A stretch of DNA of 48,062 nt, from contig NZ_BBPM01000014.1 in assembly GCF_000787775.1 (NCBI RefSeq), forward strand, positions 1 to 48,062, written 5' to 3'. This document shows positions 14,487 through 43,155 of this stretch, piece by piece; positions within the stretch are counted from its first letter, which is position 1, and each line of letters starts with the position of its first letter. The notes beneath the pieces were generated by a model. It was not told where the DNA came from and made no database searches. It saw nothing but the letters and a program-made list of their open reading frames with translations. This DNA comes from Streptacidiphilus carbonis. GTDB taxonomy: Bacteria > Actinomycetota > Actinomycetes > Streptomycetales > Streptomycetaceae. The position numbers and the translations under genes are program-made.

Positions 14487-15749
14487 ATGTCGGCGCTGTC
14501 TCGCCTCCACGCCCCGCGACGGGTCCTGCCACGGGTGCCGCCGCTGGCGCTGGACGGCGCGGTGGCCTTCGCGCAGATCGCGGTCGGACTGCAGCTCGGC
14601 CTCCACCCGCAGTCGCCCTGGCAGCCGCTGGACGCCGGCGGCATCGCGCTGACCTGCCTGATCGGGCTGGTCACCGTCGCCCGCAGATTCGCTCCGCTGC
14701 TGGTCGTGCTGGTCTGCTGCGCGCTGTGGACGCTCTATGTGGCGATCGGCTTCTGGCCGGTGGTGAACAGCCTGACCCCCATGGTCGCCCTCTACACGCT
14801 CGCCTCACTGCGGCCGCGGCGCCAGGCCGCCCTGGGCGCCGTGCTGATGGCCGCGGTCTGGGTCTACGCGGGCCTGCGCACCCCGGGGTCGCAGATGACC
14901 GGGGTCCTCATCCAGGCGCTGGCCTTCCCCGCGGTGCTGTGGCGCTTCGGCGACGCGGCTCGGCAGTTGAGCCTGCGCAACCAGCAGCTTGCGCTGGCCG
15001 CCGAGCAGTTGTGCGACGAACACGAGCAGCGTTCCCGGCTGGCCCTGTCCGACGAGCGCACCCGGATCGCCCGGGAGCTGCACGACGTGGTCGCCCACCA
15101 CATGGCGGTGGTCTCGGTCCAGGCCGGCCTGGCCCGCTACGTCCTGGACAGCGACCGGGACACCGCGGCGCAGGCGCTGGACACGGTGCTGGAGACGGCC
15201 AGCGAGGCGCTGGAGGAGCTGCGGCACGTGCTGGCGCTGCTGCGCACCCGGCCCTCCCCGGAGCGGCCCGAGATCCCGGACGGCCTCCCGGGCACGGAGG
15301 GACCGGACGGGCCGGCACCGTACTCCCCCGCCGCCGGACTGGCCCAACTCCCGGATCTCACCGGCCGGGTGACCTCCGCCGGGGTCCCCGTCCGGCTGGA
15401 CGTCAGCGGCCCGGTCCGACTACTGGCGCCCGGTCCCGACCTGTGCGCCTACCGGGTGGCCCAGGAGAGCCTGACCAACACCCTCAAGCACGCCCCCGGC
15501 GCCAGGGCGACGGTCGCGCTGCACTACGGCAGCTCCGAACTGACCCTTCGGATCTCCAACGACCGCTGCCCGCCCGGCTACCCGGCCCCGCTCAGCGCCA
15601 GCGGCAGCAGTGCCGGCCTGCTGGGAATGCGTGAGCGCGCCGAGCTGTACGGTGGGCAACTCCGGGCCGGGGAAAGCCCGTTGGGCGGCTTCGAGGTGAT
15701 CCTCACACTCCCGCTCCCTGGTGCTCGGCCCGCCCGTCACCAACAATGA
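14487..15749 (+). CDS. Sensor histidine kinase (second two-component pair)
   Basis: A 420-residue kinase. The membrane part (about residues 20-140) has about five hydrophobic segments. A coiled stretch (RQLSLRNQQLALAAEQLCDE) leads into the HisKA_3 helix RTRIARELHDVVAHHMAVVS, with phosphoacceptor His in ELHDV, and then the ATP-binding domain with VAQESLTNTLKHAPG and AGLLGMRERAELYGG. The ATG at 14487 has no ribosome site, but TATGGT lies 6 bases upstream, so the mRNA may be leaderless. The regulator gene follows after 33 bases that form half of a strong hairpin. Confidence 0.92.
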   Translation: MSALSRLHAPRRVLPRVPPLALDGAVAFAQIAVGLQLGLHPQSPWQPLDAGGIALTCLIGLVTVARRFAPLLVVLVCCALWTLYVAIGFWPVVNSLTPMVALYTLASLRPRRQAALGAVLMAAVWVYAGLRTPGSQMTGVLIQALAFPAVLWRFGDAARQLSLRNQQLALAAEQLCDEHEQRSRLALSDERTRIARELHDVVAHHMAVVSVQAGLARYVLDSDRDTAAQALDTVLETASEALEELRHVLALLRTRPSPERPEIPDGLPGTEGPDGPAPYSPAAGLAQLPDLTGRVTSAGVPVRLDVSGPVRLLAPGPDLCAYRVAQESLTNTLKHAPGARATVALHYGSSELTLRISNDRCPPGYPAPLSASGSSAGLLGMRERAELYGGQLRAGESPLGGFEVILTLPLPGARPARHQQ

Positions 15750-15766
15750 CTGCACGGGCCGAGCAC
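15721..15766 (+). promoter_or_regulatory. Intercistronic hairpin between kinase and regulator genes
   Basis: GTGCTCGGCCCG (15721-15732) and CGGGCCGAGCAC (15755-15766) form a perfect 12-bp stem. The 22-base loop contains the kinase stop codon (15747-15749). The regulator ribosome site AGGGAG follows the stem directly. It could tune regulator translation or be a leaky terminator; there is no T run. Confidence 0.55.
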
Positions 15767-15782
15767 AGGGAGACGAGACCGC

Positions 15783-16517
15783 GTGACGAGCGTGCTGGTC
15801 GTCGACGACCAAGTGCTGATCCGCGCGGGCCTGTCCGCCCTGATCGCCGCCGCACCCGGGCTGGAGGTCGTCGGCCAGGCGGCCGACGGGCACGAGGCGC
15901 TGGCCCTGAACGAGCACTGCCGCCCGGACGTGGTCCTGATGGACGTGCGGATGCCGGGGCTGGACGGCGTCGCCGCCACCCGCCGACTGCTCGCCGCGGA
16001 CTCGCCGCACCGGCCCAAGGTGCTCATCCTCACCACCTTCGACCTGGACGAGTACGTCTACGCCGCACTCAGCGCCGGGGCCAGCGGGTTCCTGCTCAAG
16101 GACACCCCGCCGACCCGGCTGCTCGCCGCCATCGGCACCGCCGCACACGGCGACATCCTGCTCGCCCCCAGCGTCACCCGCCGACTGGTGGAGGCGTTCG
16201 CGCCCCGCGCCGCGGCAGCCGGCCGGTCCGGCGGACCCAAGCCCGCCACCGCCCTGGACTCGCTGACGGGGCGGGAGAACGAGGTGCTGCGGCTGGTGGC
16301 GCGCGGTCTGGGCAATCCGGAGATCGCCAAAACCCTGCACGTCAGCGAGGCGACGGTGAAGACCCACCTCAACCGCACCATGAGCAAGCTGAGCCTGGCC
16401 AGCCGGGCCCAGGCCGTGGTGCTGGCCTACGAGGCCGGTCTGGTGACACCGGGTCAGCCCGCCCCCGAGGGCCCGGCGGGTCCGGCACCGGGGACCCGCC
16501 CGGACGCGGCGCGGTAG
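15783..16517 (+). CDS. LuxR/NarL-family response regulator (second pair)
   Basis: A 244-residue regulator starting at GTG 15783 (VTSVLVVDDQVLIRAGLSAL), with AGGGAG upstream. The receiver domain has phosphoacceptor Asp in VVLMDVRMPGLDG and Lys in FLLKDTPPTR. The LuxR HTH is at about residues 160-220 (LTGRENEVLRLVARGLGNPE, then HVSEATVKTHLNRTMSKL). It is transcribed with the upstream kinase. Its last 64 bases overlap the 3' end of the convergent allophanate hydrolase gene, so antisense effects between the two are possible. Confidence 0.93.
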   Translation: MTSVLVVDDQVLIRAGLSALIAAAPGLEVVGQAADGHEALALNEHCRPDVVLMDVRMPGLDGVAATRRLLAADSPHRPKVLILTTFDLDEYVYAALSAGASGFLLKDTPPTRLLAAIGTAAHGDILLAPSVTRRLVEAFAPRAAAAGRSGGPKPATALDSLTGRENEVLRLVARGLGNPEIAKTLHVSEATVKTHLNRTMSKLSLASRAQAVVLAYEAGLVTPGQPAPEGPAGPAPGTRPDAAR

Positions 16518-18151
16518 GCCCGCCAGCCGCCGTGGGCGGTGATGTCGGGGGCACCCGCCAGTGCGACGCCCTCGCACAGGAACCCGGTCACCGCGCTGCC
16601 GTCGGCCAGCCGCACCCGGCCCAGGGCCATCGGCTCGGGCAGGGCCGCCAGCAGTCGTCCCAATCCCTCCGCGGGCAGTTCCCAGACCTCCGCCTGAATG
16701 GCGGCGCCGCCCTCGGCGACCCGGACCAGCCCCGGTTTGGACGGGCTGGTGGCCAGGGCGTGCAGCCGGTACTCCGGCGCCGTGGTGGTGGACTCCACCA
16801 GTCGGGCTCCCAGATCCAGCAGTTGGCCGTTCAACGGCTCGCCGCTGAGATGCGCGCCGACCACCGCCAGCCGGACCGGGGCGGGGCCGGTCAACAGCCC
16901 GGCGACGGAGCCGAGCCGGTCCTCGGTGTGCGGGCGGCCGATCAGCATCACCCCGAACGGCAGCCCGGCTCCTACCGTTCCGGCCGGAACGGCCAGCGCG
17001 CACAGGCCGAACAGATTGGTGGAGTTGGTGAAGCGCCCCATCCGTGAGTTCACCCCCACCGGATCGGCGGCGACCTCGTCCAGGGTGGGATGGCCAGGCG
17101 TGGTGGGCAGCAACAGGGCGTCGGCGTCACCCAGTTCGGCGAGCGCGGCGGCCCGCAGCCGGGCCAGCCGCTCCTGGTCGACGAAGAGCCGATGGGCCGG
17201 GATGTCGCGGGCGGCGGTGACAATGGCCGCGACCACCGGGTCCAGGTACTCCTTCCCCGCGTGCGACTCGACGAACGCCCCGACGGCGGTGTAGCGCTCG
17301 GCCACGAAGGCGCCCTGGTAGAGCAGTTCCGCCGCACAGCTGAAGGGTGTCAGGTCCAGCGGCAGCAGCTCGGCCCCGGCGTCGGCCAGGCGCCGCACCG
17401 CGGCTGCCCAGACGATGTCCCAGCCGGGGTCGAGCTCGCCCAGCTGGTCGGGGTCCGGCACCGCGATCCGCCAGGGGCCCGCTCTGCGGGCGGGCGGCTC
17501 CGGTGGGCCGTCCACCAGCAGCGCATGCGCGAGCTCGGCCTCGGCGACGGTACGGGCGAAGACGCTGACGCAGTCCAGGCTCCGGCAGGCGGGGACGACC
17601 CCGCTGGTCGGCACGGCCCCGTAGGTCGGCTTGAGGCCGACGACGCCGTTGAGCGCGGCCGGGACCCGGCCGCTGCCCGCCGTGTCCGTGCCCAGCGCCA
17701 GGTCTGCGATGCCCAGTGCGACGGCGACGGCGGATCCGGAGCTGGAGCCGCCGGAGACGCGGGTGGGGTCCACGGCGTTGCGCACCGCGCCGTACGGGCT
17801 GCGGGTGCCGACCAGACCGGTGGCGAACTGGTCGAGGTTGGTCGTGCCCAGCACGATCGCGCCGGTGGCACGCAGCCGGGCCACAGCGCCGGCGTCCTGC
17901 TCGGGACGGTAGGCGTAGCCGGGGCAGCCGGCGGTGGTCGGCAGTCCGGCGACGTCGATGTTGCCCTTGACCGCCAGCGCGGTCCCGGCCAGCGGCAGCC
18001 GCTCGCCCGCGGCGGCCCGTGCGTCCAGTGCGCGGGCCTCGGCCTCGACGTCCGGCTGCGGCCGCAGGTCGATCCAGATCTCCGGCCGGTCCGTCTCGGC
18101 GATGCGGCGGTAGGCGGCGCGGACGCGGGCGAGTGCGGGTCCCTCGGTCAT
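16454..18151 (-). CDS. atzF: Allophanate hydrolase
   Basis: A 565-residue amidase-signature enzyme with the extra C-terminal domain of allophanate hydrolases (from about residue 450). The Ser-cisSer-Lys triad is visible: Lys62 in LAVKGNID, the cis-Ser in GGSSSGS (136-137) and nucleophile Ser160 in GTDTAGSGR. It splits allophanate (carboxyurea) to two ammonia and two CO2, the last step of urea-carboxylase or guanidine-carboxylase pathways. The ATG at 18151 overlaps the carboxylase stop by 4 bases (ATGA). It is the last gene of the four-gene catabolic operon and converges with a response regulator gene, overlapping it by 64 bases. The length and domain order are normal. Confidence 0.95.
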   Translation of the reverse strand: MTEGPALARVRAAYRRIAETDRPEIWIDLRPQPDVEAEARALDARAAAGERLPLAGTALAVKGNIDVAGLPTTAGCPGYAYRPEQDAGAVARLRATGAIVLGTTNLDQFATGLVGTRSPYGAVRNAVDPTRVSGGSSSGSAVAVALGIADLALGTDTAGSGRVPAALNGVVGLKPTYGAVPTSGVVPACRSLDCVSVFARTVAEAELAHALLVDGPPEPPARRAGPWRIAVPDPDQLGELDPGWDIVWAAAVRRLADAGAELLPLDLTPFSCAAELLYQGAFVAERYTAVGAFVESHAGKEYLDPVVAAIVTAARDIPAHRLFVDQERLARLRAAALAELGDADALLLPTTPGHPTLDEVAADPVGVNSRMGRFTNSTNLFGLCALAVPAGTVGAGLPFGVMLIGRPHTEDRLGSVAGLLTGPAPVRLAVVGAHLSGEPLNGQLLDLGARLVESTTTAPEYRLHALATSPSKPGLVRVAEGGAAIQAEVWELPAEGLGRLLAALPEPMALGRVRLADGSAVTGFLCEGVALAGAPDITAHGGWRAYRAASGRVPGAGPAGPSGAG

Positions 18152-21100
18152 GCGGCGTCTCCGATCGTGGCCGTGACGGTCTCCCCGGCGTCCGCCGCAG
18201 CTGCGGCGGCGAGCAGCAGCAGCGGCGCACCGGCCTCCACCTGGTCGCCGGCGCGCACCAGCAGCCTTTCCACCAGCCCGTCCTGAGGTGCCGTCAGGAC
18301 CGACTCCATCTTCATGGCCTCCACCGCCATCAGCCGCTGCCCCTTGCGGACCAGTTGTCCCGGCTCCACGTCGACCTTCCACACACAGGCCGTGAACTGG
18401 GCCTCGATCAACTGCCCGCCCTCGGGCACGCTGATCTCCTCCGCGGGCGGCACGAACACCTGGGCCTGCTCGGCCCGGTCGAACTCGCCTGCCAGCTCCC
18501 AGGCCCGGCGCTCCGCACCGAAGGCGGCGCCCTGGCGCTCGCGGAAGGCCGCGATATCGGCGGCGTTGGACTCCAGGAAGCGGAGGTGGTCGGCCAGGGC
18601 GAACTCGCCGTCCTCCATGGTGACCGCGAGCCGTCCGGCCGCCATGTCGGCCCGCATCTCCAGTAGTTCGTCGGCCTCCACCGGGAACCACCTGATCCGG
18701 TCGAAGAAGCGCAGCAGCCAGGGCTTGCCGGCCTCGAAGGGCCCGCGCTGCTGCCAGCCCGACCACACCTGCACGGTGCGGCCGACGAACTGGTAGCCGC
18801 CCGGGCCCTCCATCCCGTAGACGCACAGGTAGGCGCCGCCGATGCCGACGGAGTTCTCCGCGGTCCAGGTCCTGGCCGGGTTGTACTTGGTGGTGACCAG
18901 CCGGTGCCTGGGGTCCAGCGGGGTGGCCACCGGCGCGCCCAGGTAGACGTCGCCCAGGCCGAGGACCAGGTACTCGGCGTCGAAGACGGTGCGGTACACG
19001 TCCTCGACCGAGTCCAGTCCGTTGACCCGGCGGATGAACTCGATGTTCCACGGGCACCAGGGCGCGTCGTCGCGCACCCCGGCCGTGTAGCGGGCGATGG
19101 CCTCCCGGGTGGCCGGGTCGTCCCAGGACAGGGGCAGGTGGACGGTGCGGGAGGGGACCCGCAGCTCGCGGGTGGGCGGCAGCCGCCGTTCCGCCTGCTG
19201 GACCAGCGGCAGCAGTTCGGCCAGCGGCAGTACGGCCGGGTCGGTGTGGATCTGCAGCGAGCGGATGCCCGGGGTGAGGTCGACCACGCCGGGCAGGTCC
19301 AGCGCGGCCAGCGCCTCGGCCAGGGCGTGCACCCGCATCCGCAGCGCCAGGTCGAGCTGCATCGGGCCGTACTCCACCAGCAGGTTGTCGTCGCCGCTGC
19401 GCCGGTAGCCGACGGCGGGCCGGTCCTCGCCCGCCGGGGTGCGGGCCAGGATGCCGCCGTCCACGATCGGGGGCCGGTCCCGGCCGTCGGTGGTGACCGG
19501 GCGGAACGAGACGGTGTCCCCCGGGCGCAGCTGCCCCAGCTTCCAGCGGTCCCGGGTGAGCACGGTGGCCGGACAGACGAAGCCGCCGAGTGACGGACCG
19601 TCAGGACCGAGCAGCACCGGCATGTCGCCGGTGTAGTCGACCGCGCCGACCGAGTAGGGCGTGTCATGGATGTTGGAGGGGTGCAGCCCGGCCTCGCCGC
19701 CGTCGCGGCGGGCCCAGGCCGGCTTGGGGCCGACCAGGCGGACGCCGGTGCGGGCGCTGTTGAAGTGCACGGTCCACTTCGCCGCGTAGAACTCGGCGAT
19801 GTCCTGCTCGGTGAAGAACTCCGGTGCGGCATGCGGCCCTTCGACGGCATCCAGGACCCAGTCGCGGGTGAGCACCGGCCGTTCGCCGGGCGGCACCGCC
19901 CGGGTCGCGGCAGCGGCCGGGACGGCGGTCGCCGTCGGGCGGCTGTGCAGGACGTCGCCGACCCGCAGGGTCCGGCCGCCGTGGCCGCCGAAGCGGCCCA
20001 GGGTGAAGGTGGCCGCGCTGCCGAGGAAGTCCGGCACCTCCAGGCCGCCGGCGACCAGCAGATAGCTGCGCAGTCCGGTCTGCTCCGGTGCGCCGATCGC
20101 CAGTTCGGCGCCGGCCGGAACCGTCAGCGTCTCCCACTGCGGCGCCGGGCGTCCGTCCACGGTGACCTCGACGGCTGCCCCGGTGACGCACACCGTGGTA
20201 GCTGCGCTGAAGCGGAGCACCGGTCCTTCCAGGGTGCACTCCAGCCCGGCCGCCCCCTCCGGATTCCCCAGCGCCCGGTTGCCCAGCCGGAAGGACCGGT
20301 CGTCCATCGGCCCGCACGGCGGCACGCCGACATCCCAGTAGCCGGTCCGACCCGGCCAGTCCTGGACCGTGGTGAGGGTGCCCGCGCGGACCACGTCGAT
20401 CCTGGGCAGCGGGTCGCCGAGGCCGGCCAGGGTGGCGGTGGTGTGCACGGCCTCCCGGACGGCGGGCGCGGCGGTGGCGGCGCGGAGCAGGCCCAGATTG
20501 GTCTCGATGCCGTCGACCCGGCTGGCGGCCAGCGCGGCGTCCAGGCGGTCCAGGGCGTCGGCGCGGTCCGCGCCATGGGCGATGACCTTGGCCAGCATCG
20601 GGTCGTAGCTGGTGCCGACCTCGGTGCCGGTTTCCACCCAGGTGTCCACCCTGACGTCCTCGGGGAAGGAGACGCGGGTGAGCAGGCCGGCGCTGGGGCG
20701 GTGGTCCCGGTGCGGGTCCTCGGCGTAGACGCGGGCCTCGACGGCATGGCCGCGCGGCGGGCCGACGGGCCGGACCACGTCGCGGTCCCCCTGGGCCAGC
20801 CGGAGCATCCACTCGACCAGGTCCACGCCGTGGACCGCCTCGGTGACCGGATGCTCCACCTGGAGCCGGGTGTTGACCTCCAGGAAGGACGCCTCCTGAC
20901 GGACCGCGTCATAGACGTACTCGACCGTCCCGGCGGAGCGGTAGTCGAGCGAGGCGCAGAGGGCGGCGGCCGATTCGGCCAGCCGGGACCGGACCGTGTC
21001 CGGCAGGCCGGGGGCCGGTGCCTCCTCCAGCACCTTCTGGTTGCGGCGCTGCAGCGAGCAGTCCCGGTCGCCGAGGGTGACCACCCGCCCGGCGCCGTCG

Positions 21101-21753
21101 CCGAACACCTGCACCTCGACATGTCGGGCCTGTTCCACCAGCCGTTCCAGGAAGAGCCCCGCTCCGGCGAAGCCGGCCGCGGCGACGCGCCGGACGCTGT
21201 CCCAGGCCTCGGCGAGCTGCTCGGGGCCGTGGCAGGCCCGCATCCCGATGCCGCCGCCACCGGCGGTCGCCTTGAGCATCACCGGGTAGCCGAGCGCGTC
21301 GGCGGCGGCCGCAGCTGACGCCAGGTCAGGGAGCAGGCCGGTACCGGGGAGCAGCGGCACCCCGGCGGCCTCGGCGGCGGCCCGGGCGGTGTGCTTGGCC
21401 CCGAACACCTCCAACTGCTCGGGGGTCGGGCCGACGAAGACGAGTCCGGCGTCCTCGATGTCGCGCGCGAACCGCGCGTCCTCGGAGAGGAAGCCGTAGC
21501 CGGGGTGGACCGCCCCGGCGCCGCTCTCCAGGGCGGCCTTCAGGACCAGGTCGGCGCGCAGATAGCTGTCCTTGGCCGGCGCCGGGCCCAGACGCACGGC
21601 GTGGTCCGCCAGCCGGACGTGCGGGGCACCGCGGTCCGGGTCGGAGAAGACCGCGACGGTGCGCAGGCCCAGGCGGCGTGCGGTACGGATGACCCGGACC
21701 GCGATCTCCCCCCGGTTGGCCACCAGCAGGGTGTCAAAGGCACTGGAGGGCAT
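18148..21753 (-). CDS. uca: Biotin-dependent urea/guanidine carboxylase
   Basis: A 1201-residue multidomain enzyme. The biotin carboxylase half is at about 1-450 (LLVANRGEIAVRVIRTARRL; ATP-grasp KATAGGGGIGMR; EVNTRLQVEHPVTE). The carboxyltransferase half has KipA-like (about 460-750, VVRAGTLTTVQDWPGRTGYW) and KipI-like (about 800-1080, RRSGDDNLLVEYG; NSVGIGGAYLCVYGMEGPGG) parts. The BCCP domain ends the protein, with biotinyl Lys1148 in VEAMKMES. It makes allophanate from urea or carboxyguanidine from guanidine, with ATP and bicarbonate. The flanking DUF1989 pair favours guanidine, because those proteins deiminate carboxyguanidine. The substrate-selecting residue was not aligned here. It starts 1 base after the second DUF1989 gene. 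Confidence 0.95.
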   Translation of the reverse strand: MPSSAFDTLLVANRGEIAVRVIRTARRLGLRTVAVFSDPDRGAPHVRLADHAVRLGPAPAKDSYLRADLVLKAALESGAGAVHPGYGFLSEDARFARDIEDAGLVFVGPTPEQLEVFGAKHTARAAAEAAGVPLLPGTGLLPDLASAAAAADALGYPVMLKATAGGGGIGMRACHGPEQLAEAWDSVRRVAAAGFAGAGLFLERLVEQARHVEVQVFGDGAGRVVTLGDRDCSLQRRNQKVLEEAPAPGLPDTVRSRLAESAAALCASLDYRSAGTVEYVYDAVRQEASFLEVNTRLQVEHPVTEAVHGVDLVEWMLRLAQGDRDVVRPVGPPRGHAVEARVYAEDPHRDHRPSAGLLTRVSFPEDVRVDTWVETGTEVGTSYDPMLAKVIAHGADRADALDRLDAALAASRVDGIETNLGLLRAATAAPAVREAVHTTATLAGLGDPLPRIDVVRAGTLTTVQDWPGRTGYWDVGVPPCGPMDDRSFRLGNRALGNPEGAAGLECTLEGPVLRFSAATTVCVTGAAVEVTVDGRPAPQWETLTVPAGAELAIGAPEQTGLRSYLLVAGGLEVPDFLGSAATFTLGRFGGHGGRTLRVGDVLHSRPTATAVPAAAATRAVPPGERPVLTRDWVLDAVEGPHAAPEFFTEQDIAEFYAAKWTVHFNSARTGVRLVGPKPAWARRDGGEAGLHPSNIHDTPYSVGAVDYTGDMPVLLGPDGPSLGGFVCPATVLTRDRWKLGQLRPGDTVSFRPVTTDGRDRPPIVDGGILARTPAGEDRPAVGYRRSGDDNLLVEYGPMQLDLALRMRVHALAEALAALDLPGVVDLTPGIRSLQIHTDPAVLPLAELLPLVQQAERRLPPTRELRVPSRTVHLPLSWDDPATREAIARYTAGVRDDAPWCPWNIEFIRRVNGLDSVEDVYRTVFDAEYLVLGLGDVYLGAPVATPLDPRHRLVTTKYNPARTWTAENSVGIGGAYLCVYGMEGPGGYQFVGRTVQVWSGWQQRGPFEAGKPWLLRFFDRIRWFPVEADELLEMRADMAAGRLAVTMEDGEFALADHLRFLESNAADIAAFRERQGAAFGAERRAWELAGEFDRAEQAQVFVPPAEEISVPEGGQLIEAQFTACVWKVDVEPGQLVRKGQRLMAVEAMKMESVLTAPQDGLVERLLVRAGDQVEAGAPLLLLAAAAAADAGETVTATIGDAA

Positions 21754-21754
21754 C

Positions 21755-22384
21755 TCAGTTGACTCCGTCGTGGATCGTCGTCAGGACCGGGGTGGGGTCG
21801 AAGCCGTTGCAGGGGTTGTTCACCTGCGGGCAGTTGGACACCAGCACCAGCACGTCGGTCTCCGCGCGCAGGGTCAGCGAGAGCCCGGGTGCGGAGAGCC
21901 CGTCCACGATGCCGAGGGTGCCGTCCGGCTCCACCGGGACGTTCATGTACCAGTTGACGTTGCCGACCAGGTCGCGCTTGCCCAGGCCCCAGCGGGCCCC
22001 CTCGGCCAGGAAGTTGTCCACACAGGCGTGCTGGGTCCAGGTGTGGTGGCCGTAGCGCAGGGTGTTGGACTCCCGGCTGCAGGCACCGCCGATGGTGTCG
22101 TGCCGGCCGACCTGGTCGGCGGTCACGGTCATCAGCGGGGTGTGCTCGTTGGAGAGCAGCACACTGCCGGTGCTGAGGAAGATCGATCCCTGGGCCTGCA
22201 GGGTGTCGGCGGCGCTGTAGCGGACCGAGGTGTCGTGCCGGTCGTACACCAGGAAGTCCACCGCCTGGTTGCCGGCCAGATCGGTCACGGTGAGCGACTG
22301 CCCGGCGTTCAGCGCGGCGGACCACGCGGCACGGGCCGGAACGGTGGTGGAGCGTGCACCGGTGGTGCTGGATGCGGTCGTCAT
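21755..22384 (-). CDS. cgdB: DUF1989 protein, urea carboxylase-associated protein 2 (carboxyguanidine deiminase subunit)
   Basis: A 209-residue DUF1989 protein of the urea carboxylase-associated family 2. The core contains NQAVDFLVYDRHDTSVRYSA, SNEHTPLMTVTADQVGRHDT and a Cys-rich end, SNCPQVNNPCNGFDPTPV. Cys and His residues here (GGACSRE, HACVDNF) are possible zinc ligands. In characterised guanidine-degrading clusters this protein and its partner form the carboxyguanidine deiminase CgdAB, which converts carboxyguanidine to allophanate and ammonia. It starts 1 base after the end of its partner and ends 1 base before the carboxylase, so the operon is very compact. The a/b subunit letters are my inference from order and length. 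Confidence 0.85.
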   Translation of the reverse strand: MTTASSTTGARSTTVPARAAWSAALNAGQSLTVTDLAGNQAVDFLVYDRHDTSVRYSAADTLQAQGSIFLSTGSVLLSNEHTPLMTVTADQVGRHDTIGGACSRESNTLRYGHHTWTQHACVDNFLAEGARWGLGKRDLVGNVNWYMNVPVEPDGTLGIVDGLSAPGLSLTLRAETDVLVLVSNCPQVNNPCNGFDPTPVLTTIHDGVN

Positions 22385-22385
22385 C

Positions 22386-23189
22386 TCACAGCCCCCGTGC
22401 GGCGCAGAATTCGGCGGTGTTCAGATAGGCCCGGTGCCCCTCGGGCGTCGCCTCCCAGAGCGGGTCGCCGGGGCCGGTGGGCCGACCTCGCCAGGCGGTG
22501 ACCTCCAGCGGGCCGCAGTGGTAGTCGGGGCGCGGGTCCAGCGGGTGCGGGACGTTGGCGATCAGCACGGTGAGCGGCTGCTCCGCGCGCAGCGTCACCG
22601 CCGTGCCGGGACCGGCCGAGCCGGTGTACTCCAGGGAGCCGTCCGTGGCCACCCTGACGCCCTGGAACAGCGAGAGCGAGGGGGCCAGGTCGCGCCGGTC
22701 CAGACCGTTCTTGGCGGCGGCGAGCAGCAGCAGTTCGCGCCCGGCGGGGGAGGCCGACTGGGGGGTGCCGTCGCCGTAGCGGGCGGTGTTGCGGGCCAGG
22801 GTGGAGGTCCCGCACAGCGCGTCGTGGCGGCCCGAGCCGTCCTCGGTGACGGTCGCCAGCACCCGGCCCTGGTCCGAGAGGAGCAGGCTGCCGGCTCCCA
22901 CGTAGGCGTTCCACTGGACCTTGGTGGTATCGGCCACGTTCAGCCGTTCCCAGGGCCGGTCGGCGACGTGGAGGAGCAGATGGGCGCAGGCGTCGCCGCT
23001 CGGGTCGGCCAGCCGCAGCGAGCTGCCCCGGGCCAGCACCTTGTGGGTGTAGTTGCCGCCGGGCACGGTCTCGGCCCAGACCAGGTCCCCGGCCGCGACT
23101 CCGGGCGGCGCCGCGGGCCGGTCCACGGGAGCGGCCTGGGCCCGGGCGTGGTCCCTGGCCCCGTAGGTGGTGTCGGTTGCCGAACGCAC
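22386..23189 (-). CDS. cgdA: DUF1989 protein, urea carboxylase-associated protein 1 (carboxyguanidine deiminase subunit)
   Basis: A 267-residue DUF1989 protein, the longer of the pair and the first gene of the operon. Recognisable segments are GDLVWAETVPGGNYTHKVLA, LRLADPSGDACAHLLLH and GSGRHDALCGTSTLARN. The His-Cys pair in HDALCG and Cys in PDYHCGPLEV may bind metal. The GTG at 23189 has GGAGG 6 bases upstream. The TetR-type palindrome at 23222-23247 lies 33-58 bases before the start codon, so repressor binding would block the promoter. Together with the second DUF1989 protein it probably deiminates carboxyguanidine. If the carboxylase is urea-specific, its role would be unclear. Confidence 0.85.
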   Translation of the reverse strand: MRSATDTTYGARDHARAQAAPVDRPAAPPGVAAGDLVWAETVPGGNYTHKVLARGSSLRLADPSGDACAHLLLHVADRPWERLNVADTTKVQWNAYVGAGSLLLSDQGRVLATVTEDGSGRHDALCGTSTLARNTARYGDGTPQSASPAGRELLLLAAAKNGLDRRDLAPSLSLFQGVRVATDGSLEYTGSAGPGTAVTLRAEQPLTVLIANVPHPLDPRPDYHCGPLEVTAWRGRPTGPGDPLWEATPEGHRAYLNTAEFCAARGL

Positions 23190-23221
23190 GGTCAGCCTCC
23201 TGGAGTGGACGAGGAGTTCGC

Positions 23222-23247
23222 GAGTTTCTGTCGCTTGACAGAAATTA
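23222..23247. promoter_or_regulatory. TetR-type operator between cgdA and tetR (site 1)
   Basis: Core arms TTTCTGTC (23225-23232) and GACAGAAA (23237-23244) are perfect inverted repeats around GCTT. The right arm extends to GACAGAAATTA. The site sits 33 bases from the cgdA start and 78 bases from the tetR start. A perfect -35 hexamer TTGACA (23235-23240, toward tetR) lies inside it. A near-identical site precedes the permease gene at 25941-25966. Confidence 0.8.
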
Positions 23248-23325
23248 GACGGACCGCGCTTCCGGGCGATTGCCCGGACGTTTCCCCTTGGTTACGCACC
23301 CCTGGCCGTGTGCGAGGATCGCTCC

Positions 23326-24036
23326 ATGCCCACCACCGCCCGTGCCTCAGGACCAGGTCGGGGACGAGTCGGTCGGCCCCGGGCGCAGGGGCCGGCCGCC
23401 GACGGCCTGGCCCCCCGGGACGGCGTGCTCGCCGCGGCCGCCGAACTGTTCACCCGGCACGGCTACGCCGCCACCACCACCCGTGCCATCGCCGAACGGG
23501 CCGGGTTGCGGCAGGCGTCGATGTACCACTACTTCGCCGGCAAGGAGGACATCCTCGCGGCGCTGCTGGAGGGCACCGTCCAGCCCTCGCTGGACCTCGC
23601 CCTGGTGCTCGCGGCCAGGACCGAGCCCGGCCCCGAGGCCCGGCTGTGGGCACTCTGCCGCGCCGACGTCGCACTGCTCTGCGGCGGGCCGCACAACCTG
23701 GGGGCGCTCTACCTGCTGCCCGAGGTGGCCGCGGAGCGGTTCACAGCCTTCCACCGGGTGCGGGCGGAGCTGAAGGCCGCCTACCGCGGGCTGCTCGCCG
23801 CGGGGGCGGCGGGGGCCGCCCTCAGCGGGGCCGAGCTGGAGTTGCGGGGGGACCTGCTCTTCGGGCTGATCGAGGGTGTCATCCTGATCCGCCGCGAGGC
23901 TCCCTCCGGGCCTGCGGACGCACTGGCCTCGGCCGCGGCGGATGCGGCGCTGCGGGTGTCCGGGGCCTCGGAGGCCGTCGTCTCCGAGGCCGCGGTGCAG
24001 GGGGCTCACGTCCTTGAGGCCCTGCAACTGGCCTGA
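23326..24036 (+). CDS. TetR-family regulator of the urea/guanidine cluster
   Basis: A 236-residue protein from ATG 23326 (GAGGA 8 bases upstream); the frame is open for six more codons. A basic, disordered N-terminus is followed by the TetR HTH at about residues 35-80 (RHGYAATTTRAIAERAGLRQ, then ASMYHYFAGKEDILAALL). The C-terminal half is helical. It is divergent to the catabolic operon and shares with it a 136-bp promoter region holding operator site 1. The permease gene, which has site 2, lies just beyond it. The simplest model is a repressor released by the nitrogen compound or an intermediate. The ligand is not known. Confidence 0.9.
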   Translation: MPTTARASGPGRGRVGRPRAQGPAADGLAPRDGVLAAAAELFTRHGYAATTTRAIAERAGLRQASMYHYFAGKEDILAALLEGTVQPSLDLALVLAARTEPGPEARLWALCRADVALLCGGPHNLGALYLLPEVAAERFTAFHRVRAELKAAYRGLLAAGAAGAALSGAELELRGDLLFGLIEGVILIRREAPSGPADALASAAADAALRVSGASEAVVSEAAVQGAHVLEALQLA

Positions 24037-24078
24037 CTGTCTCTCAAGTGCGGACCGTGCCTGGTTGGATGTGCAGTT

Positions 24079-24134
24079 CCCCGCGCCCCCATGGGGCTGC
24101 AACTGGCTCAGTTGCACACGTCAGGGGCGCGGGG
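24079..24134. terminator. Bidirectional terminator, nested inverted repeats
   Basis: The outer stem CCCCGCGCCCC (24079-24089) pairs with GGGGCGCGGGG (24124-24134). An inner hairpin, GCAACTG-GCT-CAGTTGC (24099-24115), is perfect. It lies between the convergent tetR (ends 24036) and permease (ends 24152) genes. The outer arms match the intergenic GC motif also seen at 4733-4757. Confidence 0.7.
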
Positions 24135-24151
24135 CTGTGCTTGACAATCCC

Positions 24152-25693
24152 TCAGTCGCGCCCGCGCCGGGTGGTCCGGTGGGCGACGACGCCCAGCAGC
24201 ACGGCCCCGGCCAGGAACAGCAGGGTGAAGTACTGCAGGTACCAGTGCCCGCCCTGCGGGTCGTAGACCGCCGGCCTCGGCCAGGCCAGGTTGACCGCCA
24301 TCGCCACCCCGTACACCACTGCCAGGACGTTGACCGGAAGGCCCCAACGGCCCAGCGAGAACACCGGGCGCCCGGTCTCGTCCGTTCCGTCCTGGCCGCC
24401 CAGCGGCACCCCGCGCAGGCGTCGCAGCAGCATCGGCCCGGTGACCATCGCGTACGCGGCGTAGACCAGCACGATGCAGGTGGTCCCCAGGGCCAGGTAG
24501 ACCGACGGCGAGACCAGGCTCATCGCCATCGCGGCGGCCGCGAGCACCCCGACGACCACGGCCGGAGCCTTGGGGGTGCCGGTGCGCGTCCCGACCGCGG
24601 CAAGTCGCCGCGAGGCCGGCAGCGCGCCGTCCCTGGCCATCGAGAAGACCATCCGCGCGCCGGCCGTCTGGATCGCCAGGGTCGCCACACAGACCGCCAC
24701 CGCGACGTCCGCGAGCAGGGCCCGGCCCAGGCCGCTGCCGAGCCGGCTGGTCAGCACATAGGAGAGCCCCGCGCCGGAGAGGTGGCCGTCGGTCAGGCTG
24801 GGCGCCGCCAGCACCCCGCCCAGCAGGATCAGTCCACCGCCGACGCCGGCCGCGGCCACCGCCCCCAGGATGGTGCGCGGCGCGGTGCGCCTCGGCGAAC
24901 GGGTCTCCTCGGACATCTCCCCGGCGCTGTCGAAGCCCACCAGCACATAGGCCGCGCTGAACGAGGCGATCAGGAACACGCCCAGATAGCCCCCGGAGAC
25001 CGGGCCGGTGTGCAGGGTGACCCCCGGTCCCCGCTCGGTGTGGGTGAGCAGCAGCACCGCCATCAGCGCGATGCCGACCAGCTCGCAGGTCACCCCGACG
25101 CTGTTGACCACCGACATCACCCGGATGTCGACGATGTTGACCACCGTGGTCAGCACCAGCAGCACCAGGCCCAGCAGCACCGCGTTCTGCGCGCCGGTCC
25201 GTGTGGTCGGCGAGGGGTCGCCGCCGACCAGCTGGAAGCCGGACCAGATGGCCGGCAGCACCACCTGCAGCGCCAGCGCCGCGGCGGAGACGACCACGAT
25301 CTGGCCGATGACCATCAGCCATCCGGCGAACCACCCGAAGGTGGGCGTGCTCAGTCTGGTCGCCCACTGGTAGACCGCACCGGAGATCGGGTACCGGGCC
25401 GCCAGTTCGGCGAAGCAGGCGGCGACCGCGAGCTGGCCGACCAGGACCAGCGGCCAGGTCCAGACGAAGGCGGCACCGCCGAAGGAGAAGCCGAAGGCGA
25501 AGAACTGGAACACCGTGGTGAGCACCGAGATGAAGGAGAACCCGGCGGCGAAGGAGGCGTAGCGGCCGAGCCTGCGGTGCAGCTCCTGCCGGTAGCCGAA
25601 GGCGGCGAGGACGACGGCGTCGCCGCCTTCCGCCTCGACGCCGGGGTCGATGACCTGGATCGGGATGGTGCCGCTGAGAACTGGTTCGGGCAT
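24152..25693 (-). CDS. APC-superfamily permease linked to urea/guanidine carboxylase cluster
   Basis: A 513-residue amino acid/polyamine/organocation transporter with about 12 hydrophobic helices. Family features include FSFISVLTTVFQFFAFGFSF in helix 1, FAELAARYPISGAVYQWATR, and SAAYVLVGFDSAGEMSEETR. APC permeases of this subgroup are regularly found with urea carboxylase and DUF1989 genes, so uptake of urea, guanidine or a related nitrogen compound is likely. The ATG at 25693 has AGGGA nearby. Its promoter region carries operator site 2 (25941-25966), matching the one before cgdA, which puts it in the same regulon although it is a separate transcription unit. It converges with tetR. Confidence 0.88.
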   Translation of the reverse strand: MPEPVLSGTIPIQVIDPGVEAEGGDAVVLAAFGYRQELHRRLGRYASFAAGFSFISVLTTVFQFFAFGFSFGGAAFVWTWPLVLVGQLAVAACFAELAARYPISGAVYQWATRLSTPTFGWFAGWLMVIGQIVVVSAAALALQVVLPAIWSGFQLVGGDPSPTTRTGAQNAVLLGLVLLVLTTVVNIVDIRVMSVVNSVGVTCELVGIALMAVLLLTHTERGPGVTLHTGPVSGGYLGVFLIASFSAAYVLVGFDSAGEMSEETRSPRRTAPRTILGAVAAAGVGGGLILLGGVLAAPSLTDGHLSGAGLSYVLTSRLGSGLGRALLADVAVAVCVATLAIQTAGARMVFSMARDGALPASRRLAAVGTRTGTPKAPAVVVGVLAAAAMAMSLVSPSVYLALGTTCIVLVYAAYAMVTGPMLLRRLRGVPLGGQDGTDETGRPVFSLGRWGLPVNVLAVVYGVAMAVNLAWPRPAVYDPQGGHWYLQYFTLLFLAGAVLLGVVAHRTTRRGRD

Positions 25694-25940
25694 GGCTGTC
25701 CCTGTCGCTTCCGTGAGTGACTGGGACGCGGCGGCGGACGCCGACGCGCCGCGACAGGCGGCACAGCCCGATGGCGGCGGGCGGGTTGATTGGCAGTCAG
25801 AGAACCGGCCGGTTGTTGCGGGGGCGCTAACGGCGCGTTACGAACACCGAAATCCCGGCCGGCCGTCGATCCGACGCGCGGCCGGGCATGCCCTTACGGC
25901 GCCGACACCGGCGCGACACGGCGCGGAAACCTGCCGTCCC

Positions 25941-25966
25941 TAATTTCTGTCACGCGACAGGTATTA
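25941..25966. promoter_or_regulatory. TetR-type operator upstream of the permease (site 2)
   Basis: Left arm TAATTTCTGTC (25941-25951), spacer ACGC, right arm GACAGGTATTA (25956-25966); 9 of 11 arm positions are complementary. It matches site 1 (23222-23247) in arm sequence, 4-base spacing and overall length. It is the strongest sign that permease and catabolic operon share one regulator. Confidence 0.75.
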
Positions 25967-25972
25967 CCCAGC

Positions 25973-25998
25973 GGACCCCCGGTGGCGGCCGGGGGTCC
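25973..25998 (-). terminator. Terminator of the alditol oxidase gene
   Basis: GGACCCCCGG (25973-25982) and CCGGGGGTCC (25989-25998) form a perfect 10-bp stem with a 6-base loop, 26 bases after the aldO stop codon. It separates aldO transcription from the permease promoter. Confidence 0.7.
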
Positions 25999-26023
25999 GG
26001 CCTCTGATGCACCGTCACTTCGC

Positions 26024-27310
26024 CTACGCCGCTCCCCCGGCGTACAGGCTCCGGGTGAAGGCGTTGCGGAACTTGCCGCCCGGGTCCTGGCGGTCCATCA
26101 ACTCGCGGAAGCCGTAGGCGTGTTCGTACAGGTCGGCGGCCTGCCCCGGGGTCGCGGTGAACAGCTTGCCCCAGTGCGGGCGGGCGCCCAGCGGGGTGAG
26201 CGCCGCCTCCACCGCGGCCAGCACCGGGGCGACGGCCTCCGCGTCCTGGTGCCAGGTGAAGTGGAGCGCGACACTGTCGCGGCCGTAGGCGGGGCTGAGC
26301 CAGAGCTCGTCGGCGGCCACCGTGCGGATCTCGGAGATCTGCAGCACCGGGGCGATCCGGTGGCCCAGCTCCCGCAGCGCGGCGAAGGCGGCCTGCGCGG
26401 CGGCGCGCGGGAGCAGGAACTCGGACTGCAGCTCCTCCCCCGCGCTCGGGGTGAAGTCCGGACGGAAGTGCGGCAGCCGCTCGTGCCACGGGCCGGGGAC
26501 ACCGAGCTGCTCGGTGCAGTGGGTGGCCGGGACGCCGGGGACGGGGTGCAGCGGCCGGTCGGCCGGGGCCGCGCCGAACCAGTCCAGCCGGGGCGTCCCG
26601 CCGGCGTCGGTGCGGTGCTTGAGCCAGATCTGGGCCTCGGCGCCGAACCAGTCGGTGAAGACGCTCACGCTGTAGGCGGCGCCCAGCAGGGCCGCCATCT
26701 CGTCGGCGTCGCCGGTGGCCAGGGACGCCAACGGCAGCCCGGTGAGCACGTACTGGGCGACCTGGTAGGCCGGCTCCACGTCCAGGGTCACCGCCGAGAC
26801 CACCCCGAGCGCGCCCAGGTGCACCACCGAGCCGGCGAAGCCGGCACTGTCGCGGTCCAGCGCGACCATGTCCCCGTCCGGTCCGACCAGCTCCAGCCCG
26901 GCCACCGACGAGGCCAGCCCGGGGTTGCCCACGCCGGAACCGTGGGTGCCGGTGGCGACCGCGCCGGCCACCGAGATGTGCGGCAGCGAGGCCAGGTTCG
27001 CCAGCGCCAGCCCCTCGGCCTGCAGCAGCGCGGCGACCTGCGCATGGCGCATCCCCGCCGCCACGGTGACGGTCGACCGCGCGCGGTCGACCTCGAAGCG
27101 CGGCGGCAGCTCAGCGAGCGAGACCAGGGTTCCGTCGGTGTCGGCGATGCGGTTGAAGGAGTGCCCGGTGCCCAGCACCCGCACGGCGGCGCCCTCGGCG
27201 ACCGTGCGGCGCAGCTCGTCGACCGTGCCGGGACGGGCGATGCGTGCCGCCCCGAAGGTGACGTTGCCGGCCCAGTTCCTGCGACCGGCCTCGGTGGTAG
27301 TGCCCGACAT
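26024..27310 (-). CDS. aldO: Alditol oxidase (FAD-linked)
   Basis: A 428-residue FAD enzyme very close to S. coelicolor AldO, which oxidises xylitol, sorbitol and other alditols at C1 and makes hydrogen peroxide. The FAD-binding PCMH domain has VRVLGTGHSFNRIAD, where His50 matches the residue carrying covalent FAD in AldO, and SLPHISVAGAVATGTHGSG. The C-terminal active-site segments EIRTVAADELWLSPAYGRDS and RPHWGKLFTA match those that bind the substrate in AldO. The N-terminus (NWAGNVTF) is also conserved. The ATG at 27310 has GAGGAG upstream. It is cytoplasmic, with no signal peptide, and seems to be a single-gene unit with its own terminator. Confidence 0.93.
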   Translation of the reverse strand: MSGTTTEAGRRNWAGNVTFGAARIARPGTVDELRRTVAEGAAVRVLGTGHSFNRIADTDGTLVSLAELPPRFEVDRARSTVTVAAGMRHAQVAALLQAEGLALANLASLPHISVAGAVATGTHGSGVGNPGLASSVAGLELVGPDGDMVALDRDSAGFAGSVVHLGALGVVSAVTLDVEPAYQVAQYVLTGLPLASLATGDADEMAALLGAAYSVSVFTDWFGAEAQIWLKHRTDAGGTPRLDWFGAAPADRPLHPVPGVPATHCTEQLGVPGPWHERLPHFRPDFTPSAGEELQSEFLLPRAAAQAAFAALRELGHRIAPVLQISEIRTVAADELWLSPAYGRDSVALHFTWHQDAEAVAPVLAAVEAALTPLGARPHWGKLFTATPGQAADLYEHAYGFRELMDRQDPGGKFRNAFTRSLYAGGAA

Positions 27311-42137: not shown

Positions 42138-42208
42138 GCGCAGCCGAGGCACCCTGCACCCGCCCCCGGGACGGCATGGATGCCGCGGGGGCGGGCAGGG
42201 GCCCTGAC

Positions 42209-43155
42209 ATGGCTGGACTGGCTGAGTACAAGGACATCGGCTTGGGTCTGCTGGGCGTCCCGACCAGCGCGGGCTCGCACAACCCGGGCCAGGAGAAGGC
42301 GCCGGCGGCCTGGCGCCGGGCAGGCCTGTCCAAGGAACTGGCCGCCCACGGCGTCACCGTGGAGGACTACGGCGACCTGCCGGTACAACGGCACCGCCCG
42401 AGCCCCCCGGTCGGCGGCGTCCGCGACCTGGAACGGGTGGCCCGGACCGCCGCCGCACGGCCACGGAGGTCACGGCGATCGTACGGGCCGGACGGCTGCC
42501 CCTGGTCCTCGGCGGCGACTGCACCGTCACCCTGGGCGTGGTCGCCGGGCTGGCGGCACAGGGGAGCACCCCCGGCCTCGTGTACGTCGACGGCGACGCG
42601 GACCTGGGCACCCCGGACACCACCGACTCCGGTGTGCTGGACACCATGGGCATGACCCATCTGCTCGGCGACGGCGTCCCCGCCCTCGCCCGCCTCGGCC
42701 CCCGGCACCCGCTGCTCCCGGCCGACCACATCGCGCTACTCGGCTTCGACCCCGCCGAGCCCAGCACGGAGCACTGGGGCCGCCTGGCCTCCCACCGCCT
42801 CCACGCCACACCGGTGGCCGCCGTCCGCAGCGACCCCGAAGCCGCGGCAGCGGCTGCGCTCGCCCACCTCGGGGCCCGCACGGACTCCGTCCTGGTCCAC
42901 TTCGACGTGGACGTCCTGGACACCGGCGCCTTCCCGCTCGCGAACTTCCCCCACTTCAACGGCCTGACGGTCGATCAGGCCGAGGCCGTACTGGCCCGCC
43001 TCTGCGCCAGCCCGGCATTCGCGGGCCTGGTGGTGACGGAGGCCAACCCGGACCACGACCCGGAGGGGGGACTGATGGAGGCACTGGTCCGCATGCTCGG
43101 ACGGGTGCTCGGACCGGCGCTGGGACCGGCGCTGGGGGACGGCGGAACGGCGTAG
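42209..43155 (+). pseudogene. Arginase/ureohydrolase-family protein with a 1-base frameshift
   Basis: The N-terminal frame from ATG 42209 reads GLGLLGVPTSAGSHNPGQEK, then GDLPVQRHRPSPPVGGVRDL, which is typical of actinobacterial arginase-fold proteins. After RTAAA, near 42456-42462, the sequence continues in another frame with ATEVTAIVRAGRLPLVLGGD, then VYVDGDADLGTPDTTDSGVL and VHFDVDVLDTGAFPLANF. One missing base explains it; with it the protein would be about 315 residues. Metal motifs are GGDC, DGDAD and DVDVLD, so the usual His of GGDH and DAHAD is absent and true arginase activity is doubtful even if repaired. A 12-bp repeat (GGACCGGCGCTG) extends the C-terminus. Confidence 0.85.

Follow-up and report, generated by a model that had tools for sequence, protein, structure and literature searches.

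Sequence evidence for a probable AmtR-repressed guanidine-scavenging regulon in Streptacidiphilus carbonis

A gene cluster of Streptacidiphilus carbonis very probably forms a guanidine-scavenging regulon repressed by the TetR-family protein AmtR; this assessment covers the regulon and its repressor, and the ligand of AmtR is weighed separately. The cluster lies within a stretch of 48,062 nucleotides (the window: assembly GCF_000787775.1, contig NZ_BBPM01000014.1, forward strand, positions 1-48,062) of an 8.46-Mb genome. Its gene content, the guanidine-type aspartate of its carboxylase, the identity of AmtR, the identity and conservation of the AmtR operator and the lack of any known riboswitch can be read from the sequence. 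We infer catalysis, transport, binding and activation in the following form. An APC-family permease would import guanidine, a biotin carboxylase would turn it into carboxyguanidine, the CgdAB enzyme would deiminate carboxyguanidine to allophanate, and an allophanate hydrolase would convert allophanate to ammonia and CO2. The divergently encoded AmtR would bind a shared palindrome, present once in the leader of the cgdA operon and once in that of the permease gene, and so repress the two units; under nitrogen limitation GlnR would probably activate the cgdA promoter through a box immediately upstream of the AmtR operator.

Genes and operators of the cluster

The carboxylase (18148-21753, minus strand; 1201 amino acids with biotin carboxylase, carboxyltransferase and biotin carboxyl carrier protein domains) matches TIGR02712 with 1790.7 bits, above the curated cut-off. 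Aligned to the K. lactis urea amidolyase 5i8i, it has Asp706 at residue 1330, where the K. lactis enzyme has Asn1330, and Asp935 at residue 1584. Asp1584 and Asp1330 have been used to separate guanidine from urea carboxylases (PMC11410670), and Asp versus Asn is named as the difference between the two enzymes in PMC12186494. With both aspartates, the window enzyme therefore bears the published signature of a guanidine carboxylase. Beside it on the same strand lie cgdB (21755-22384) and cgdA (22386-23189), predicted to encode carboxyguanidine deiminase subunits of the DUF1989 family (UAAP2 and UAAP1), with scores above the curated cut-offs of TIGR03424 (313.5 bits) and TIGR03425 (305.9 bits). 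The allophanate hydrolase gene (16454-18151, minus strand; AtzF type, 565 amino acids) also exceeds the curated cut-off of its family (TIGR02713, 677.2 bits) and contains PF21986 AH_C. A single base separates cgdA from cgdB and cgdB from the carboxylase gene, and the carboxylase and allophanate hydrolase genes overlap by the four bases ATGA. The tight unit of two DUF1989 genes, carboxylase and allophanate hydrolase described in the initial annotation of this DNA thus holds in spacing and in families.

The same genes might instead constitute a urea-degrading operon, as the annotation, the family names (urea carboxylase for TIGR02712, UAAP1/2) and the published naming of AmtR regulons suggest, a reading that we regard as very unlikely. 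The window carboxylase has Asp706 instead of the urea-type Asn, whereas the six actinobacterial carboxylases found without adjacent cgdA and cgdB all have Asn706, and the urea pathway was rejected on this comparison. One genome (G031) holds both kinds of carboxylase: the Asp kind adjoins AmtR and its box, and the Asn kind has neither next to it. In the roughly 8 kb examined on most sides of five Asn-type carboxylases, no AmtR was found, only TetR-type helix-turn-helix matches of 36-44 bits near three of them; the sixth (G037) was read with only 1.5 kb of flank. Furthermore, two urease alpha genes above the cut-off are present on other contigs of the window genome, so that a urea carboxylase would be redundant; such genes occur in 34 of the 45 cgdB-bearing genomes surveyed below. 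Urea also failed to release the AmtR of M. smegmatis (PMC4222082). The initial annotation had favoured guanidine over urea as substrate, and the substrate-selecting residue, the presence of cgdAB and the urease genes elsewhere all bear it out.

The amtR gene (23326-24036, plus strand; PF00440 TetR_N) is divergent from cgdA. Its open reading frame, 23308-24036, opens at a GTG at 23308, and the ATG at 23326, which follows a stretch resembling a ribosome-binding site, is the likelier start. The closest PDB entry to the product is 5e57, titled 'Transcription regulator AmtR' (6.5e-40), with 5dy1/5dxz at 6.3e-35; 5dy0, 5mqq and 6gy3 complete the top matches, and the next lies far behind at 6e-11. 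Three of these six entries are titled AmtR, and the three titled just 'TetR family' are presumably C. glutamicum AmtR; we take 5e57 to be the M. smegmatis protein and 5dxz, 5dy0 and 5dy1 to be from C. glutamicum. Judged by this sequence likeness the window protein is AmtR, and it is the sole AmtR match at E<=1e-18 in its genome. The permease gene (24152-25693, minus strand) stands apart from the cgdA unit, and both it and the divergent TetR gene had been recognised from the start. It probably encodes a guanidine importer: its best family is TIGR03428, 'permease, urea carboxylase system', and its relatives at two other loci (L055 and L056; 61% and 55% identical) lie directly 3' of Guanidine-I riboswitches.

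A matching palindrome had been noted before both transcription units, and it is indeed present in each. Predicted operator 1, TTTCTGTC-N4-GACAGAAA, with perfect arms of 8 bases, occupies 23225-23244 between cgdA and amtR, and predicted operator 2, AATTTCTGTC-N4-GACAGGTATT, occupies 25942-25965 in the permease leader. The palindrome fits the AmtR consensus published for S. avermitilis and others, TAtCTGTCa-n2-cGACAGATAT (PMC8864220), which is consistent with the proposed TetR control through one palindrome common to both leaders. The bare core CTGTC-N4-GACAG is not rare by itself, since the genome contains 7 sites, although this is fewer than the 17 sites of the reversed pattern used as a control. 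When the operator is extended and at most one mismatch is allowed, in contrast, only two sites remain in the genome, in these two leaders. Across 14 genomes (11 of the window's family and three of family f17) this extended form gave 29 sites: 14 in cgdA leaders, 14 in permease leaders and one elsewhere. The permease-leader assignment was read directly in nine genomes and deduced in the other five from permease genes truncated at the edge of the locus. G706, an AmtR-positive genome of the window's family, was omitted from this set and has an AmtR and operator of another subtype. The palindrome is kept in both leaders in all 14 genomes, and with 28 of the 29 sites at cgdA or permease leaders a chance palindrome was rejected.

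Control by an unrecognised riboswitch or other RNA element, with the palindromes incidental, is the least probable explanation we considered. It could draw on a G+C-rich hairpin in the cgdA leader, flanked by the GlnR box and the AmtR site, but the leader folds no better than its shuffles (z -0.85), and the conservation of the palindrome counts against it. An Rfam scan of the whole window at gathering score returned one tRNA and no riboswitch, a permissive scan of 23180-26030 returned two microRNA families far under their gathering scores and nothing relevant, and no Guanidine-I or -III match was found in the window genome under stricter filters. A hidden riboswitch was rejected on the scans and the folding score, and the riboswitch-free leaders described in the initial annotation stand at both scanning scores.

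AmtR and riboswitch lineages across actinobacteria

Three overlapping draws of genomes were searched for cgdB, and its family cut-off was exceeded in 27 of 246, 42 of 394 and 14 of 396, respectively. The positives came to 45 distinct actinobacterial genomes, all of which were searched for AmtR (positive at E<=1e-18), Guanidine-I, Guanidine-III and urease alpha; the genome-wide riboswitch searches, covering more than 40 genomes, used stricter filters. Carboxylase residues and boxes were read in the window and 44 fetched regions, 26 of which (L031-L056) were scanned with all Rfam families and the other 18 with Guanidine-I and -III only. The operator pattern was fixed beforehand as CTGTC-N4-GACAG with at most one mismatch, and was widened to CTRTC-N4-GAYAG after L081, whose operator is exactly CTATC-N4-GATAG, had been seen.

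AmtR was matched in 37 of the 45 genomes. All 37 AmtR-positive clusters have Asp706, and 36 carry the widened box in a leader with at most one mismatch (33 exactly), against 2.57 expected from shuffles; the prefixed narrower pattern gave 34 and 25, respectively. Guanidine-I reached its cut-off in none of the 37. Among the eight AmtR-negative clusters, residue 706 is Met in four (L050, L054, L055 and L056) and Ile in two (L091 and L092), two have no carboxylase, and none has an AmtR box. In the fetched regions of L049 and L052, cgdA, cgdB and allophanate hydrolase genes are present, whereas carboxylase, AmtR and box are all absent. Among the 246 genomes of the class, 28 have a TIGR02712 match at E<=1e-200, these enzymes including the six Asn-type carboxylases mentioned above, and AmtR occurs in 21 of 27 cgdB-positive versus three of 219 cgdB-negative genomes.

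Guanidine-I reached its cut-off in three of the 45 genomes (G015, G085 and G022), all without AmtR, and is placed in the cgdA leader in L054 and in the permease leader in L055 and L056, so that either an RNA sensor or an AmtR box is found at these two promoter types. These operons share cgdA, cgdB and a carboxylase with the window, together with an allophanate hydrolase (L054, L056) and a related permease (L055, L056). They differ in their RNA sensor, the absence of an AmtR box, and a carboxylase of distant lineage with Met706 and no joined biotin carboxylase domain found. A second Guanidine-I riboswitch of G015 (L093, 3837-3943) precedes a creatininase-family gene. A carboxylase tree made by a quick method gathers 36 of the 37 Asp/AmtR enzymes into a single clade (SH-aLRT 86), with the Asn clade next to it, and places the carboxylases of riboswitch-bearing loci in a distant lineage. 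AmtR and riboswitch control are found in two lineages with different control, rather than as a demonstrated swap.

A further set of 80 loci from named genera (Mycolicibacterium, Rhodococcus, Gordonia, Williamsia, Tsukamurella, Nocardia and others; M. smegmatis not included) comprised the best 80 of 582 (L182-L261). All 80 have Asp706, Asp935 and the widened box with at most one mismatch (76 exactly; no shuffle control), and amtR lies in the locus in 62. These loci were picked by similarity to an AmtR-controlled enzyme, and they confirm conservation, not exclusivity. Throughout this set, and in L033, L036, L038, L045-L048, L076, L078, L079, L081 and L087, the carboxylase match consists of the carboxyltransferase part only. 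No biotin carboxylase domain was found within about 5 kb of the mycobacterial-type carboxylase in any of these 80 best loci, and this enzyme may borrow a biotin carboxylase and carrier encoded elsewhere. A second AmtR is encoded in L144, L151, L152 and L153, accompanied by two copies of the operator spaced about 95 bases from each other; in L144 its gene diverges from an operon for an ABC transporter of the Opp/Dpp type, as judged by Pfam.

Several observations weigh against a guanidine regulon repressed by AmtR. The associations amount to about one evolutionary event, because the Asp/AmtR carboxylases are essentially one clade, and their Fisher values overstate the evidence and do not count as independent support. 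Three cgdB-negative genomes (G143, G049 and G104) have AmtR relatives: one is divergent from a glutamine synthetase gene, one is without a box, and one has two boxes between its gene and an oligopeptide-type ABC transporter. Not every AmtR target is a guanidine gene, since the L144 paralogue, which has the same effector-domain residues, adjoins the ABC transporter. L090 (G512) combines Asp706 with a weak TetR match (38%) and no box; this TetR lacks Asn130, Gly132 and Glu139 and is probably not AmtR proper. The Asp rule is incomplete, because three of the four Met706 carboxylases are under Guanidine-I riboswitches. The Asn-type carboxylase of G223 (L148) has a G+C-rich one-mismatch operator site just 5' of its start, and a weaker DUF1989 gene occurs elsewhere in three of the six Asn-type genomes (G037, G209 and G223). 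The window permease scores 653.3 bits, under the TIGR03428 cut-off of 740.45. The Guanidine-I match of G022 scores 63.0 bits, which equals the cut-off, and is missing from the local scan, and sub-cut-off Guanidine-I matches occur away from the cluster in the AmtR-positive genomes G695, G741 and G200.

Nitrogen control and candidate effectors of AmtR

The cgdA leader also contains a predicted GlnR box that was absent from the initial annotation. It reads GTAAC-N6-GAAAC (GTAACCAAGGGGAAAC; 23280-23295, minus strand, that of cgdA), lies upstream of the AmtR site and fits the consensus gTnAc-n6-GaAAc (PMC10704036). With the pattern GTNAC-N6-GMAAC, chosen after an earlier looser look, 17 of the 37 AmtR-positive clusters have a box in at least one of the two leaders (cgdA or permease), against 0.24 expected, and none of the eight others has one. 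Its presence fits the dual control by GlnR and AmtR described in print: the AmtR regulon of M. smegmatis is very small and also under GlnR (PMC4222082), and competition between GlnR and AmtR is stated together with an antisense RNA on amtR (PMC10704036, PMC4617892).

These findings bear on whether AmtR has a ligand at all. It might act without a small-molecule effector, the promoters responding to nitrogen status only, with GlnR activating and competing with AmtR, as has been proposed for M. smegmatis, and with guanidine unsensed; we hold this to be quite possible, if on balance improbable. The GlnR box of the window, the published competition and antisense RNA, the loss of nitrogen control of AmtR targets in an M. 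smegmatis glnR mutant and the lack of any effect of urea or amino acids, stated for 0.5-5 mM without data being displayed, on M. smegmatis AmtR binding (PMC4222082) all favour it. Guanidine, however, is absent from the effectors named as tested on that protein in the same paper, sister pathways use a guanidine-sensing riboswitch, and the effector domain itself hints at a ligand site. Asp120, Tyr135, Phe148, Arg152, Tyr159 and Glu189 are kept in all 33 cluster AmtRs examined (the 34 encoded inside fetched regions minus that of L090), and Glu139 in 32 of them. M. smegmatis AmtR keeps all seven, and the same residues, numbered six lower, are invariant in 44 database relatives of the window AmtR picked from 120 listed. 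In C. glutamicum AmtR, which acts together with GlnK, Tyr135 and Arg152 are retained and the others are replaced: Asp120 by Glu, Glu139 by Ile, Phe148 by Tyr, Tyr159 by Phe and Glu189 by Met.

The conserved residues are compatible with a small cationic ligand, and a role of AmtR as a protein sensor of guanidine is plausible. Counting against this, the acidic residues alone are no pointer to guanidine, because they are kept in paralogues, one of them beside an ABC transporter. The chances that AmtR is released by guanidine or a pathway intermediate, rather than acting ligand-free, seem to us about even. The more specific proposal is made tentatively, and we would put it slightly short of an even chance: AmtR outside Corynebacterium may respond to guanidine or carboxyguanidine through Asp120, Tyr135, Glu139, Phe148, Tyr159 and Glu189, and would then be the first known guanidine-sensing transcription factor. 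A 2025 review gives guanidine riboswitches as the only known guanidine receptors besides transporters and metabolising enzymes, and anticipates guanidine-binding transcription factors as possible future finds (PMC12186494). Our literature search, in which most subscription papers were beyond reach, found no paper linking AmtR with guanidine.

RNA sensing of guanidine occurs in many of the same genomes. Guanidine-III reached its cut-off in 23 of the 45, at 24 sites, none near the cluster. A small multidrug-resistance-type frame of the SugE/Gdx kind lies 3' of 15 of the 17 sites read, at a distance of up to 40 bases in 14 cases and of 326 bases in L110; Pfam agreed for the six of these frames to which it was applied, and the others were judged by eye. 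At the two remaining sites, near-cut-off matches in L107 (1016-1087) and L108 (1068-1140), the next gene encodes a small membrane protein instead of such an exporter, and in L107 this protein belongs to the CBU_0592 family. Of the 17 genomes whose Guanidine-III sites were read, 16 are AmtR-positive, and many AmtR-positive cells thus already own an RNA guanidine sensor for export.

Known AmtR regulons and the guanidine reading

Studies of M. smegmatis AmtR from 2013 and 2016 reportedly treated its regulon as one of urea carboxylase or urea metabolism, and the 2016 paper is said to give the operator as CTGTC-N4-GACAG. The protein (msmeg_4300; targets msmeg_2184-2189) controls a small regulon of the same genes as in the window, but amtR lies apart from its targets, and the mycobacterial relatives' carboxylase is without the joined biotin carboxylase and carrier domains of the window enzyme. 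Target expression was stronger in an M. smegmatis amtR mutant, AmtR binding was seen in gel shift, and the gene set with a divergent amtR was displayed for ten actinobacteria including S. avermitilis (PMC4222082).

The AmtRsav regulon of S. avermitilis (sav6697, sav6698, sav6701 and sav6709) was reportedly described by Chen et al. 2013, Microbiology 159:2571. Like the window, S. avermitilis has a divergent amtR, a urf pair, carboxylase and amidase genes and a separate permease gene (PMC4222082), and its operator core equals that of the window (PMC8864220). The set is named there for urea carboxylase, and its permease lies elsewhere, whereas that of the window adjoins amtR. The AmtR of C. glutamicum belongs to the same family and recognises a related operator, CTAT-N6-ATAG (PMC8864220), but it regulates at least 35 genes and is released with GlnK, and its effector domain is unlike that of the window at positions 120, 139 and 189. 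The initial annotation had suggested a little-described mode of control, and this did not stand: the regulator is AmtR, its operator is published, and it has been studied in S. avermitilis, where a counterpart of the cluster is known, and in M. smegmatis. The window adds a further member to a known control system; what is new is the guanidine reading of the AmtR regulon outside Corynebacterium.

Two features of the neighbourhood may be recorded. A histidine kinase and a LuxR-type response regulator are encoded at 14487-16517 on the plus strand, the last of these genes overlapping the allophanate hydrolase gene tail to tail. At 42200-42450 on the plus strand an arginase-family N-terminal part (PF00491) scores barely above its cut-off; similarity then seems to fade along the reading frame, which points to a broken gene or a sequencing slip.

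The structure of AmtR has been solved, its operator is known, and a published effector search that failed names just urea and amino acids; the search should now turn to guanidine and its carboxylated product. Were AmtR responsive to guanidine, this would account for the failure of urea to release the M. smegmatis protein, and in many of the same cells a Guanidine-III riboswitch would switch guanidine export while AmtR switched guanidine feeding. More generally, if the AmtR regulon were relabelled as one for guanidine instead of urea, many actinobacteria would have the annotation of this cluster put right.

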